Positions 28,441-34,237 of a stretch of DNA of 64,000 nucleotides are shown here, one piece after another; within the stretch, counting starts at the first letter, position 1, and each line of letters opens with the position of its first letter. The stretch comes from Sphingomonas lacunae (GTDB lineage: Bacteria; Pseudomonadota; Alphaproteobacteria; Sphingomonadales; Sphingomonadaceae), in NCBI RefSeq assembly GCF_012979535.1, contig NZ_CP053015.1, positions 1,054,001 through 1,118,000 of the forward strand, read 5' to 3'. Below the pieces are notes generated by a model. The model worked only from the letters and a program-made list of their open reading frames with translations, did no database searches and had not been told where the DNA came from. A program made the position numbers and the translations under genes.

Positions 28441-28685
28441 GACCGGCCCTTAGGCCAAGTGGGCCCGCGCCTCAATGCCCGATCATGGGGCAATGACAGG
28501 CCGTTGCGTTGGCGCAACAACTGGCCATCACCTGTTGCCCCCGCGCTTTTTTGTTAGCTGTTGCATATTTTTGGGTTATGGTGGGGTGGGCATGGAAGTA
28601 ATTTCCTGACTCGTGGCGCCGCATACTGGTCCGTTCGGGGTGGTCTGCCAGTTTAGCAGGACGGAATTTGAGTGTTGATTGGCGC
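28441..28685 (+). other. Intergenic leader region upstream of the cold-shock gene
   Basis: A 245-base gap between divergent rnd and the RGG cold-shock gene. An AT-rich block (about 28548-28580) is a likely promoter area in this GC-rich sequence. The ~100 bases that follow would give a long leader, as is common for cold-shock genes. I do not see a convincing -35/-10 pair. AGGACGG near 28660 precedes an in-frame TTG at 28668, an alternative start. Confidence 0.4.
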
Positions 28686-29501
28686 ATGAGTTTTGATCGG
28701 GAACGCCGCGGTGGTGGCGGCAATGGCAGCAAGCGTGGCGGACGTGGCCGGCGCGACGACTTCGGACAGGATTTCTACGGCGGTGGCGGTTTTGGCGAAC
28801 CCCCGCGCGGCGGTGGCTTTGGCGACCGCGACCGTGGCTTTGGCGGCGGCGATCGTGGCGGCTTCGGCGGTGGTGATCGTGGCGGTGGCTTCGGCGGAGG
28901 ACGCCCCGGCGGCGGTGGCTTCGGTGGCGGCGACCGTGGCGGTTTTGGCGGCGGTGATCGTGGCGGCGGTGGCGGTTTCAGCCGCGGCCCGCGCCCGCAG
29001 ATGCCGGCCCAGGTTGTTGGCGAAGGCACTGGCGTCGTAAAGTTCTTCAACAAGGACAAGGGCTTCGGTTTCGTCGCCCGTGACGATGGCGGTGAGGACG
29101 TGTTCGTTCATATCAGCGCTGTGGAACAGGCCGGTCTCGAAGGCCTCGCTTCGGGTCAGACGCTGGCCTTTACCCTGGTTGATCGCAATGGTCGCATCTC
29201 GGCCATTGATCTCAAGATCACCGGTGAACAGCTTCCGCTCGACGCCCCTGCCGAACGGCCGCAGCGCGCCCGTCGCCAGCTGACCGGCGAACGCGCATCG
29301 GGTGAGGTGAAGTTCTTCAACGGGTCAAAAGGCTTCGGCTTTATCAAGCGTGACGATGGCGGGGCGGATTGCTTCGTCCACATCAGCGCGGTTGAACGCG
29401 CCGGCATTCACAGCCTCAACGAGGGCGACCGGCTCGAATTTGACATCGAAGTCGATGATCGCGGCAAGTATAGCGCGGTCAATCTCGCTGCGTCGAACTG
29501 A
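28686..29501 (+). CDS. RGG-tailed tandem cold-shock domain protein
   Basis: A 271-residue nucleic-acid-binding protein. Residues 1-105 are almost wholly Gly, Arg, Asp and Phe, with repeated GGGDRGGFGGG units (RGG type). Two cold-shock domains follow. The first has RNP1 KGFGFV (125-130) and RNP2 VFVHIS (139-144); the second has KGFGFI (215-220) and CFVHIS (229-234). The linker is basic. It probably binds single-stranded RNA or DNA and could condense through the RGG tail. The ATG at 28686 is the family-like start (SFDRERRGG). A strong terminator follows. Confidence 0.9.
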   Translation: MSFDRERRGGGGNGSKRGGRGRRDDFGQDFYGGGGFGEPPRGGGFGDRDRGFGGGDRGGFGGGDRGGGFGGGRPGGGGFGGGDRGGFGGGDRGGGGGFSRGPRPQMPAQVVGEGTGVVKFFNKDKGFGFVARDDGGEDVFVHISAVEQAGLEGLASGQTLAFTLVDRNGRISAIDLKITGEQLPLDAPAERPQRARRQLTGERASGEVKFFNGSKGFGFIKRDDGGADCFVHISAVERAGIHSLNEGDRLEFDIEVDDRGKYSAVNLAASN

Positions 29502-30717: not shown

Positions 30718-32331
30718 TCAGCCGGTGCCAGGCCCGTCGATCATCGCCATCAATGTCGCGACATGGTCGGCTTCTGCCGCAGGCTTGTCCCGCCGGATGC
30801 GGGCAATGCGGGGAAAACGCATGGCCAGGCCGGATTTGTGCCGTCGCGACGCGTGGATCGAATCAAAGGCCACCTCCAGCACCAGCGAGCGGTCCACTTC
30901 GCGCACCGGTCCATAGCGGGCGACCGTATGGTCCCGCACATATTTGTCGAGCCAGCGCAGTTCCTCGTCGGTGAAACCCGAATAGGCCTTGCCCACCGGC
31001 AGCAAGTCGCCGTCCGACCCGGGATCCCCCGACCAGCAACCGAAGGTGAAGTCGCTGTAATAGCTGGACCGCTTGCCGCTGCCGCGCTGGGCGTACATCA
31101 ATACGCAATCGGCGCGCAGCGGATCGCGCTTCCATTTGTACCACAGGCCAACGCGCCGTCCCGGCACATAAGGCGAATCCCGCCGTTTCAGCATAACGCC
31201 CTCGATGGCCGAATCGCGGGCCCCGTCGCGGATTGCCGACAGCGCGTCAAAATCCGCCGCCTCTATGATCGCCGACAGGTCAAACCGGTGAGGGGGCAGT
31301 TCGGCCATCAACGCTTCCAGCCTGTCCCGCCGCCGATGCCAGGGCAGCGCACGCAAATCGTCGCCCTGATGATCGAGCACATCATAAAGGCGGACAAAAG
31401 CGGGGGAATCGCGCAGCATGGCCGCGCTTACACTCTTGCGGCCAAGCCGCTGCTGCAAGGCATTGAAACTGGCCGCGCCCCCTGCGCTGCCGCCCTGCAC
31501 CTCGCCGCGCACCAGCAATTCCCCGTCGAGCACGGCGTCGATGGCGAAGTCGCCAGCCACATCGGGAAAGGCGGCGGTAATGTCATCGCCGCCCCGGCTG
31601 TAGAGCCGCGTCTCCCCGCCACAATGGACCAGCTGCACCCTGATGCCATCCCATTTCCATTCGGCGACATATTCGGAAAGATCCACGCTGCCGTCTTCCA
31701 GCGGATGGGCCAGCATGAAGGGGCGGAATGTCGGACGTCCGCGCAGGTCAGGGGCCCCACCGCGGCCCTCGGCCCAGTCAAACAGTTCGGCATAGGGCGG
31801 TGCCAGCCCGTGCCAGACCTGTTCAATGGCATCGACCTCCAGCCCGAATGCCTCCGCCACCGCTGTGCGCGCCAGCCGCCCCGATACGCCGACGCGCAAG
31901 GCCCCGGTGGCCAGTTTGAGCAGGGCAAAGCGGCCACCACTGTCGAGTCGGTCGAGCATGGCTGCCAGCACAGCCGGCCCCTCGCCACGTTTGAGCGCGG
32001 CCAGCCGTTCAACAGTCGCGGAGAGGGACAAGGTCTCCTCCTCCGGGACTGTCTCGCCAGGCTCAGGCCACATCAGCGCCACCGTTTCGGCTGTGTCGCC
32101 GACATAATCGCGGCTCATGCGGAACAACAGCGGGTCGACGCGTTCCTCGATCATCGCGCGAATGGACGCCGGCTTGACGGCGGGCAGGTTGACCTCCCCT
32201 GTCAGCGCCGCCAGCGCCCAGCCCCGGTCGGGATCCGCCGTCCCCTTCAGATAATCGCCGATCAGCCGCAACTTGGCGTTGCGGGACCGTGTATAGGTCA
32301 GGCGGTCAATCAGCTCGGCAAAGGCGCGCAT
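30718..32331 (-). CDS. Cisplatin damage response ATP-dependent DNA ligase (ligase-associated repair system)
   Basis: A 537-residue ATP-dependent DNA ligase. The N-terminal DNA-binding domain (about 1-200) precedes the nucleotidyltransferase domain, whose motif I lysine is K226 in EWKWDGIR. DGELL (motif III), EGVMLKRRDSPY (motif IV) and LWYKWKRD (motif V) follow, with an OB-fold at the end. This is the ligase of the Lhr-Core/exonuclease/PdeM repair system. It lies 7.4 kb from the exonuclease gene rather than next to it. The cell would also have a main NAD-dependent ligase elsewhere. Confidence 0.94.
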   Translation of the reverse strand: MRAFAELIDRLTYTRSRNAKLRLIGDYLKGTADPDRGWALAALTGEVNLPAVKPASIRAMIEERVDPLLFRMSRDYVGDTAETVALMWPEPGETVPEEETLSLSATVERLAALKRGEGPAVLAAMLDRLDSGGRFALLKLATGALRVGVSGRLARTAVAEAFGLEVDAIEQVWHGLAPPYAELFDWAEGRGGAPDLRGRPTFRPFMLAHPLEDGSVDLSEYVAEWKWDGIRVQLVHCGGETRLYSRGGDDITAAFPDVAGDFAIDAVLDGELLVRGEVQGGSAGGAASFNALQQRLGRKSVSAAMLRDSPAFVRLYDVLDHQGDDLRALPWHRRRDRLEALMAELPPHRFDLSAIIEAADFDALSAIRDGARDSAIEGVMLKRRDSPYVPGRRVGLWYKWKRDPLRADCVLMYAQRGSGKRSSYYSDFTFGCWSGDPGSDGDLLPVGKAYSGFTDEELRWLDKYVRDHTVARYGPVREVDRSLVLEVAFDSIHASRRHKSGLAMRFPRIARIRRDKPAAEADHVATLMAMIDGPGTG

Positions 32332-32379
32332 ACGCCTGTCCTAACAGAAATTGGCGGCTGATGGTCCCCTTTCGCGGCT

Positions 32380-32949
32380 TCAGCCGATCAGATCCCACAG
32401 CGCCCATCCACCCAGCAGGGCGAACAGCACGGCCGTCGCCGTCCGCATCCAGTGGAGCGGCACCAGCCGTGTCATCCGTTCGCCCAGGAACACGGCCGGC
32501 ACATTGGCCAGCATCATCCCCAATGTCGTGCCGATCGCGACCAGCAGCACATCCTGATATTGCGCGCCGAGCGCGACGGTGGCGATCTGTGTCTTGTCAC
32601 CCATTTCGGCAGCGAAAAAGGCGATGGTGGTGGTCAGGAACGCACCCCGCGCCGTCCCGTTGACGCCGGTGTCCGCCTCGTCAATCTTGTCGGGGATCAG
32701 CGTCCAGGCCGCCATGGCCAGAAAGCCGATCGCCACAGCAAAGCGGAACCACCATCCTTCGAGCAGACCCGCCACTGCCGATCCGGCCCAGGCCGCCAAC
32801 GCGTGATTGACGATGGTGGCGGCAAATATGCCGGCAATGATTGGCATGGGTTGGCGGAAACGCACCGCCAACAGGATGGCGAGCAGCATCGTCTTGTCGC
32901 CGATTTCGGCAAAGGTGACGAGCAGGGTGGAGGCAAGCACGATCGACAT
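32380..32949 (-). CDS. TMEM165/GDT1 (UPF0016) family manganese exporter
   Basis: A 189-residue six-helix membrane protein. Both copies of the cation-binding signature are intact: EIGDKT at 15-20 and EMGDKT at 115-120, in the two inverted three-helix halves. Bacterial and eukaryotic members move Mn2+ (or Ca2+) out of the cytoplasm in exchange for protons. A Mn-riboswitch-like element sits directly upstream, which supports manganese export. It lies 48 bases before the ligase gene on the same strand. Confidence 0.93.
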   Translation of the reverse strand: MSIVLASTLLVTFAEIGDKTMLLAILLAVRFRQPMPIIAGIFAATIVNHALAAWAGSAVAGLLEGWWFRFAVAIGFLAMAAWTLIPDKIDEADTGVNGTARGAFLTTTIAFFAAEMGDKTQIATVALGAQYQDVLLVAIGTTLGMMLANVPAVFLGERMTRLVPLHWMRTATAVLFALLGGWALWDLIG

Positions 32950-33027
32950 GAGCAGATTCCCGGCCGGGCGGATTTGACACGATAACGATCAACCCACCCC
33001 GCCCGGCATGGCGGAGGGCCGTCGTCA

Positions 33028-33139
33028 TCGGTCTCGCCCGACAGGTCATGGTGACCCGCCTGATTGCGCCATGGCCTCTCGGCCAAGCATGTTGACGCAC
33101 ATCACCGCAATGTTGCGGTCGGCTACTCCCCGGTAGACA
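33028..33139 (-). promoter_or_regulatory. yybP-ykoY-like manganese riboswitch
   Basis: Read on the minus strand this stretch holds the conserved pieces of the yybP-ykoY family in order. First comes CCGGGGAGTAGCC (GGGGAGTAG loop), then a GC-rich hairpin, CGTCAACATGCTTGG, and finally GGGCGAGACCG. The first and last stretches can pair to close the structure. It ends about 80 bases before the GDT1-type gene start. Known members sense Mn2+ and turn on manganese exporters of the MntP and UPF0016 families, which fits the neighbour. Exact edges are approximate. Confidence 0.82.
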
Positions 33140-33190
33140 GATGGGCCGCTAGGCCAGCACTCGTGCCGGGTCAAGCCTTGCGGCCTCTCC

Positions 33191-33754
33191 CTACAGCCGT
33201 CCCAATGCCGACAGGGCAACGATCAGGCCGATCAGCAGGAACAGCACACCGGCCACCCAGCGGATCCGCTGGATAGCCTTCACGCTCAACAAGCCGGGCG
33301 GCATCATCATGGCCGCCAGCGCCGAGGCCCCAAGCCCTGCCACGCCGCCAAAGCCGGCGAGCGCCGCATCGCCCGTGCGCGCGGCAGTAGCCAATATGAT
33401 GAAGGGTGCGCTGTCGCCGATCAGGGCGGCGAGCAACAGGATGGTGGCAGTCACAGGCCCTTTCGCCCCGGCCAGCATTTTGTCGCTGGCTGCCTTTGTC
33501 GGCCAGCACAGACCCGCTCCGGCTGACAATATCGCCAGCGCAAGGAACAGCAGCATGCCGGGCCCGCGAATCTGCAGGGCCATCTGACCGCCAAATATGG
33601 CCGACGCAGCCACCGCGACCAGCGTCGAGACCGCCAGCGCGCTCCCCAGCTGTACGGCCGGCAGCCGTCCCGCCATGCCATGCGCCAGCATCCACCAGCG
33701 CCCGCCAATGGCACCGATGGCACTGGCCAGCAGGCAAATCATGATTGCGTCCAT
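33191..33754 (-). CDS. Degenerate GDT1-like membrane protein
   Basis: A 187-residue six-helix membrane protein of the same size and layout as the GDT1 exporter next to it. The two signature places align but have lost the acidic and other key residues: AIGGRW at 15-20 in place of EIGDKT, and LIGDSA at 111-116 in place of EMGDKT. It therefore probably does not bind the metal in the usual way. Its job is unknown. It lies upstream of the riboswitch, outside the switch-controlled transcript, and 36 bases after the small Hpt-like gene. Confidence 0.7.
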   Translation of the reverse strand: MDAIMICLLASAIGAIGGRWWMLAHGMAGRLPAVQLGSALAVSTLVAVAASAIFGGQMALQIRGPGMLLFLALAILSAGAGLCWPTKAASDKMLAGAKGPVTATILLLAALIGDSAPFIILATAARTGDAALAGFGGVAGLGASALAAMMMPPGLLSVKAIQRIRWVAGVLFLLIGLIVALSALGRL

Positions 33755-33790
33755 GGTGGTGCGGTGCTCCGCTCTGGCCGTCGTCGTGCC

Positions 33791-34114
33791 TCAGTGGCCG
33801 ACGCGCAGCGCGACCGACGCCAGCAAGGCCGCTTGTGCCGGTGAACGCATCGGCTCCAATGTCACCGCATCGTCCATGGCATCGAGCCAGATCAGCAATG
33901 TCGCCGGTGCCGTATCGCGGCCGAGCGCTGATTCGAGCCGTCCGGCGAGACTGGCTACCGTCGCAAAGCCATAGGTGCTGGCTATTGTCCGGATGGTGTC
34001 GACACCTTCGACCAGTTCGACGCGGCTGAGCCGACCCTTGTCGCGGGCCAGGGACGCGATTCGCCCGTGCAGTTCCTGCCTTATCCGGCTGGCCCTTGCC
34101 TCGGTCATCGCCAT
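33791..34114 (-). CDS. Small helical protein resembling an Hpt domain
   Basis: A 107-residue soluble, mostly helical protein. The segment VDTIRTIASTYGFATVASLA followed by GRLESA resembles the phosphotransfer helix of Hpt domains (AHxLKGSAxxLG...LE), but the phosphorylated His is replaced by Asp. I could not assign a family. GGGAGA lies about seven bases before the ATG at 34114. A CtrA-box-like site lies about 125 bases upstream. It probably shares a transcript with the degenerate GDT1-like gene. Confidence 0.6.
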   Translation of the reverse strand: MAMTEARASRIRQELHGRIASLARDKGRLSRVELVEGVDTIRTIASTYGFATVASLAGRLESALGRDTAPATLLIWLDAMDDAVTLEPMRSPAQAALLASVALRVGH

Positions 34115-34237
34115 AGCCTGTCTCCCGCCTGCTGGGGCCCGCTGGTTGCTCACCGGCCCGGTTGGCGGGCGCTGTGCCCCTGGCTGCAACGCCCGCCGTC
34201 CGGTCCCTGTTGATCCCTGCATCATGCGCCCGCATGG

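Follow-up and report, generated by a model that had tools for sequence, protein, structure and literature searches.

A yybP-ykoY manganese riboswitch before a GDT1-type exporter gene in a sphingomonad-like genome, with a probable P1/X/Y switching platform

Riboswitches of the yybP-ykoY family, whose ligand was reportedly identified by a 2015 paper, hold their metal site in conserved loop pieces of the aptamer. Among the proteins met in connection with them is YrbG, which belongs to the Na/Ca-exchanger family. The accessible part of a review (PMC7380456) gives E-x-G-D-[KR]-[ST], in one or two copies, as the defining motif of GDT1/UPF0016 proteins and places a UPF0016 member under yybP-ykoY in 328 of the 333 screened strains having one. 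In Vibrio, according to the available text of PMC13274385, mneA is Mn-induced with no coverage drop at the riboswitch, and yrbG of V. vulnificus is under the same element. The accessible sections of PMC6754395 (X. oryzae) and PMC11087558 describe stabilisation by Mn2+ of the switch helix P1.1 against an invading downstream hairpin, and those of PMC11647493 an Mn2+-activated riboswitch at E. coli mntP that restores transcription-translation coupling and partly relieves Rho-dependent termination. The riboswitch-GDT1 pairing is already well known in many bacteria, and the riboswitch described here adds no new principle.

We analysed a stretch of 64,000 nucleotides (the window), in which, very probably, an ordinary yybP-ykoY Mn2+ riboswitch controls a GDT1-type Mn2+ exporter, with Mn2+ raising output through switching among helix P1 and two downstream hairpins, X and Y. 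As far as the accessible text of PMC13274385 and PMC7380456 goes, the locus shares the aptamer family, the exporter family and their order with the Vibrio mneA-type units, whereas the leader here has the exporter on one side and a divergent GDT1 paralogue lacking the motifs on the other, and the exporter is followed by a DNA ligase gene. As at E. coli mntP, in the part of PMC11647493 available, a riboswitch of the same family precedes an exporter, the E. coli one being on with Mn2+; the gene here, however, is GDT1 rather than MntP, and the X/Y platform was found by comparison. Like the transcriptional yybP-ykoY riboswitches, as the excerpts of PMC6754395 and PMC11087558 present them, it has a P1 (P1.1) switch helix whose 3' strand is invaded by a downstream hairpin; unlike them, X in the window has no U-tract, and the ribosome site is preceded by another, mutually exclusive hairpin, Y. 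A literature search on sphingomonad manganese riboswitches, covering titles and abstract openings, gave no paper on this case among those listed.

An Rfam scan of the window gave RF00080 (yybP-ykoY) as the sole family exceeding its cut-off. The original prediction had claimed a manganese riboswitch at 33139-33028 and proposed a covariance-model search, which was clearly passed: the match, at 33144-32966 on the minus strand, covers the full model (1-177) and scores 57.9 bits (E 1.1e-12) against a gathering score of 45 bits, confirming the riboswitch. Over the whole genome (2.98 Mb) there was a single RF00080 match at E <= 0.001 (E 1.3e-14). The 3' end of the match (32966) extends into the expression platform, and the aptamer ends set by P1, 33138-33024, agree closely with the predicted limits. 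The aptamer and its parts are as follows.

33024..33138, minus strand: Mn2+ riboswitch aptamer, P1 to P1 (RF00080, yybP-ykoY; 57.9 bits, E 1.1e-12)
33130..33138, minus strand: P1 5' strand, pairing with 33024-33031 (leader alignment)
33131-33122, minus strand: conserved piece GGGGAGTAGC (read in the window sequence)
33096-33089, minus strand: conserved piece GTCAACAT (read in the window sequence)
33037-33030, minus strand: conserved piece GCGAGACC (read in the window sequence)
33024..33031, minus strand: P1 3' strand, common to P1 and hairpin X (leader alignment and covariation)

The three conserved pieces had been predicted in this order on the minus strand; all were found, and they align with the Rfam consensus of the conserved loops L1 and L3, whose pieces contain the metal site (PMC6754395, accessible part). 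P1 forms six of its eight consensus pairs in the window, with two mismatches.

Downstream of the aptamer lies the exporter gene.

32380..32949, minus strand: GDT1/UPF0016 (TMEM165-type) exporter, 189 aa, with EIGDKT and EMGDKT (PF01169, 138.7 bits)

Its protein matches PF01169 far above the cut-off of 27 and in two stretches, as a two-repeat protein does. Both E-x-G-D-K-T signatures are intact, as had been noted beforehand (FAEIGDKT and AAEMGDKT, each fitting E-x-G-D-[KR]-[ST]), and the start codon at 32949 stands 74 bases after P1, near the distance of about 80 bases predicted for a UPF0016 gene. Both genome-wide PF01169 matches fall within 32380-32949, so that no second PF01169 gene was found in the genome; its best named GDT1 relatives, among the matches listed, are from Rhizorhabdus and Sphingomonas, at 72-74% identity. 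The covariance match and the GDT1 gene with intact motifs downstream support the interpretation that the element senses manganese, and the occurrence of RF00080 before MntP Mn2+ exporters in the same bacterial family fits it.

RF00080 was present in 56 of 149 genomes of that family (own genome included), above the cut-off in 34 and as sub-cut-off matches only in 22; of 118 genomes sampled from the order, 19 had it. The family scan gave 57 RF00080 loci, 51 of which were recovered by the pattern GGGG[AG]GTAGC plus GTCAACA. A GDT1 frame with E-x-G-D-K-[ST] stood behind the element in 43 of the 57, all of them pattern-recovered, at 166-234 bases from GGGG to the GDT1 start. A GDT1 homologue occurred in five of the six loci missed by the pattern; eight loci held MntP (four) or a Na/Ca-exchanger-family gene (four), with Pfam confirming two of each, and one (L059) was left outside these gene classes. 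Across the 43 GDT1 leaders (window included) that make up our alignment, GC-AGACC is invariant, and so are GGGGAGTAGC and GTCAACA, whose invariance is no test because the leaders were chosen by a pattern demanding both.

A crude motif search of the best 80 named GDT1 loci found the full pattern in 41, the aptamer without the 3' pattern in eight and neither in 31. When 17 of those 31 pattern-free loci were rescanned with Rfam at cut-off, RF00080 was present in two and absent in 15, and the notion of a riboswitch before every GDT1 was dropped on this account; the survey neither confirms nor refutes the figure of 328/333, because the Rfam cut-off misses weaker members. As a separate observation, in the four loci with a Na/Ca-exchanger-family gene (L005, L017, L022 and L042; PF01699 confirmed for L005 and L042) that gene is preceded by the same Mn2+ riboswitch and a similar X/Y platform, a context which suggests an Mn2+ exporter within the Na/Ca-exchanger family.

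Two promoter-like elements directly precede the aptamer.

33169..33174, minus strand: -35-like element TTGACC (read from sequence; leader comparison)
33147..33152, minus strand: -10-like element CTAGCG (leader comparison)

The enrichment of such elements is descriptive, because the positions were picked after viewing the sequences: of 51 leaders, the window's among them, 14 have TTGAC at -50 to -31 ahead of GGGG, as compared with 1.0% of random 20-base stretches; YTA stands at -24 to -16 in 35/51 as compared with 4.2%, and TTG at -46 to -39 together with YTA in 30/51 as compared with 0.34%. A strict sigma-70 scan found no site. From the positions of TTGACC and CTAGCG, the transcript is expected to start near 33140, about where the 5' strand of P1 begins. 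Because promoter-like elements directly precede the aptamer in many leaders, it is less likely that the riboswitch lies within the upstream gene's transcript.

Between the aptamer and the exporter, comparison of the 43 leaders revealed two hairpins.

32980..33030, minus strand: hairpin X, outer pair 33030-32980 (covariation and local fold)
32963..33007, minus strand: hairpin Y, 33007-32999 with 32971-32963 (covariation)
32958..32961, minus strand: ribosome-binding site GGGA (read from sequence)

GGGA lies 8 bases before the ATG and one base after hairpin Y. The strand 33024-33030 is needed by both P1 and X, and both covary, so that P1 is a switch helix contested by a downstream structure; in addition, the 5' strand of Y falls within the top of X. 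From this sharing of strands we conclude that P1 plus Y on the one hand and X on the other should be mutually exclusive. Both hairpins are paired in the window, where the first 70 platform bases fold locally at -32.2 kcal/mol, and X, including its base, was recovered by local folding in 38 of the 43 leaders.

The firm part of the covariation evidence is the two-sided changes, which the alignment places at 9 of the 13 pairs of the X basal stem and at 6 of the 10 pairs of Y (91.8% of cells paired). The summary figures overstate independence, because the structures were read off the same, mutually related sequences: P1 (8 pairs) plus Y (10 pairs) had 92.9% of cells paired, two-sided changes at 10 pairs as compared with 3.1 in shuffles, and a covariation score of 0.182 against 0.130, reached by 0/500 shuffles (1/500 on further pair types) and falling to 0.090 or less in shifted registers; the X basal stem plus Y had two-sided changes at 15 pairs against 8.4 in shuffles and a score of 0.328 against 0.203, again with 0/500 shuffles as high and shifted registers at 0.102 or less.

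Among the best 80 named GDT1 loci, the P1 3' strand had a downstream partner of at least 8/9 pairs in 34 of 41 readable aptamers, a count to be read against shuffles that do as well in 5-20% of trials for several loci and in 45% for L178. By eye, X also folds in some members of other families within the order, of Caulobacter and of Burkholderiales, and Y is present in most of the structures predicted after the 3' strand of P1 was taken out, L122 being one in which it is absent. A pseudoknot between X and Y was judged unlikely, because just six bases join the long X to the Y 3' strand in L122 (by eye), and the two are treated as exclusive hairpins.

If X acted as a classical intrinsic terminator without Mn2+, with P1 preventing its formation, control would be by termination in the leader. 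X does pair with the 3' strand of P1, which is how the terminator behaves in the riboswitch of PMC6754395 (accessible part), and 5 or 6 T occur in the 8 bases after X in 6 of 38 relatives (L003, L008, L011, L014, L033 and L055). In the window, however, a scan of 32300-33800 found no terminator-like sites, and the hairpin is followed not by a T-run but by TGTCAAAT, with 3 T in 8 bases; the mean over the 38 sequences is just 3.0/8, and X in L146 and L202 likewise folds without a T-run behind it. We rejected an intrinsic terminator in this leader on the scan, and consider classical intrinsic termination doubtful as the mode of control.

We favour instead an arrangement built on what can be read in the DNA, namely the aptamer, the promoter-like elements, the exporter and the competition of P1 and X for one strand. 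Mn2+ binding would lock P1, and the locked helix would keep hairpin X from invading; hairpin Y would form in its place, and exporter output would rise. X would most likely be the Mn2+-free, off state, because it matches the P1.1-invading hairpin of characterised riboswitches. Our best guess is that X would keep the gene off through poor translation coupled with Rho-assisted termination, like that reported for E. coli mntP, a route favoured because X is without a proper U-tract.

By analogy with the characterised family members (PMC6754395, PMC11647493 and PMC13274385), we infer that excess Mn2+ switches the exporter on; this direction is taken from family precedent, since equilibrium folding does not fix it. 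When the aptamer and the platform up to the start codon were folded, forcing P1, as compared with keeping the P1 5' strand unpaired, reduced the openness of the ribosome site in 28 of 39 leaders and increased it in four, contrary to an on-switch that works on translation. With the aptamer omitted and 20 coding bases added, mean openness was 0.19 in the P1 state and 0.23 otherwise (lower in 14/39, higher in 7/39), and in 24 named loci folded with this second set-up it was 0.23 in both states (lower in five, higher in five). Ribosome-site openness, which pointed the wrong way in the first set-up and nearly vanished as an effect in the second, was dropped as evidence, and we conclude that the direction cannot be read from these predicted equilibrium folds.

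Read literally, P1/X/Y could be a conserved non-terminator platform of proteobacterial Mn2+ riboswitches, with a logic not worked out so far, that might run in reverse, the hairpin next to the ribosome site being favoured by Mn2+ and GDT1 being most translated at low Mn2+; to this we give little chance. That the Mn2+ state, P1 plus Y, conceals the ribosome site here and lowers exporter translation is very improbable: Y directly abuts that site, openness fell in the 28 of 39 leaders, and folds of L123 and L202, from other lineages, pair into the ribosome site when the P1 3' strand is left out, but the effect is nearly gone with coding sequence in and aptamer out, characterised family members, as far as the accessible texts describe them, rise with Mn2+, and an exporter switched off by its own substrate makes little sense. 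A decayed or accidental aptamer that senses no manganese is scarcely credible, for despite the two P1 mismatches the 57.9 bits are among the top scores of the family sample, the window has both X and Y paired, and L125, a different species of the genus, shows the arrangement paralogue-riboswitch-GDT1-ligase as well.

The exporter is flanked by two further genes on the same strand.

30718..32331, minus strand: cisplatin-response ATP-dependent DNA ligase (TIGR04120, 782 bits; cut-off 400)
33191..33754, minus strand: divergent GDT1-like paralogue without metal motifs (AIGGRW / LIGDSA; PF01169, 17.7 bits, and profile comparison)

The ligase gene begins 48 bases past the end of the exporter; the two may be co-transcribed, the scan of 32300-33800 having shown no terminator-like site, and the ligase would then be under manganese control; a ligase also stands behind GDT1 in L018, L055 and L125. 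On the plus strand, a frame at 28668-29501 contains a glycine/arginine-rich stretch and, by eye, two stretches resembling cold-shock domains (KFFNxxKGFGF).

The upstream gene falls under the PF01169 cut-off (17.7 against 27 bits) and reads AIGGRW and LIGDSA, lacking E-x-G-D-[KR]-[ST]. Judged by profile comparison only, it is probably a remote GDT1 relative: 16 chosen subfamily members compared with 10 canonical GDT1 gave a probability of 98.1 (E 1.3e-13), and 12 of the 16 touch PF01169 at E <= 0.1. A search with the gene as query hit 69 of 149 genomes, some of the hits being canonical GDT1. We took as the subfamily 62 loci (33191-33754, L004, L058, L060-L090, L092-L109 and L111-L120), in which strict E-x-G-D-[KR]-[ST] occurs in both places in 11, in one place in four and in neither in 47. 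The subfamily looks conserved, because the 16 chosen members have a common consensus, G-x-R-D / G-D-A-x-R-F, which disfavours a plain decaying pseudogene; the window copy deviates from it (GGRW, GDSAPF). Before the upstream gene, at 33794-34225, lies a frame of 144 aa that matches no Pfam family and has the same position in other loci.

A Dps-type gene lay within the fetched stretch in 52 of the 62 subfamily loci. The arrangement reads subfamily gene, dps, riboswitch-GDT1 in L004 and L058, dps, riboswitch-GDT1, ligase in L055, and subfamily gene, dps, ligase in L070 and L080; the gene order of the window fits such arrangements minus dps, and the sole ferritin-domain match of the genome is elsewhere. 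Within the genus, L125 has the window's own order, and two other genomes, G042 and G122, carry the subfamily gene with dps, apart from the riboswitch. A literature search for UPF0016 or TMEM165 with Dps returned no title about such a pair.

With this locus a sphingomonad-like genome provides a clean unit of Mn2+ detoxification that can be tested, and comparison has given a structure for an expression platform that lacks a terminator. Beyond the ordinary pairing, the switching hairpins and the odd neighbouring gene are worth noting: a motif-less GDT1 relative that adjoins dps in many relatives may hint that a membrane protein is linked to metal storage in a way not yet described.
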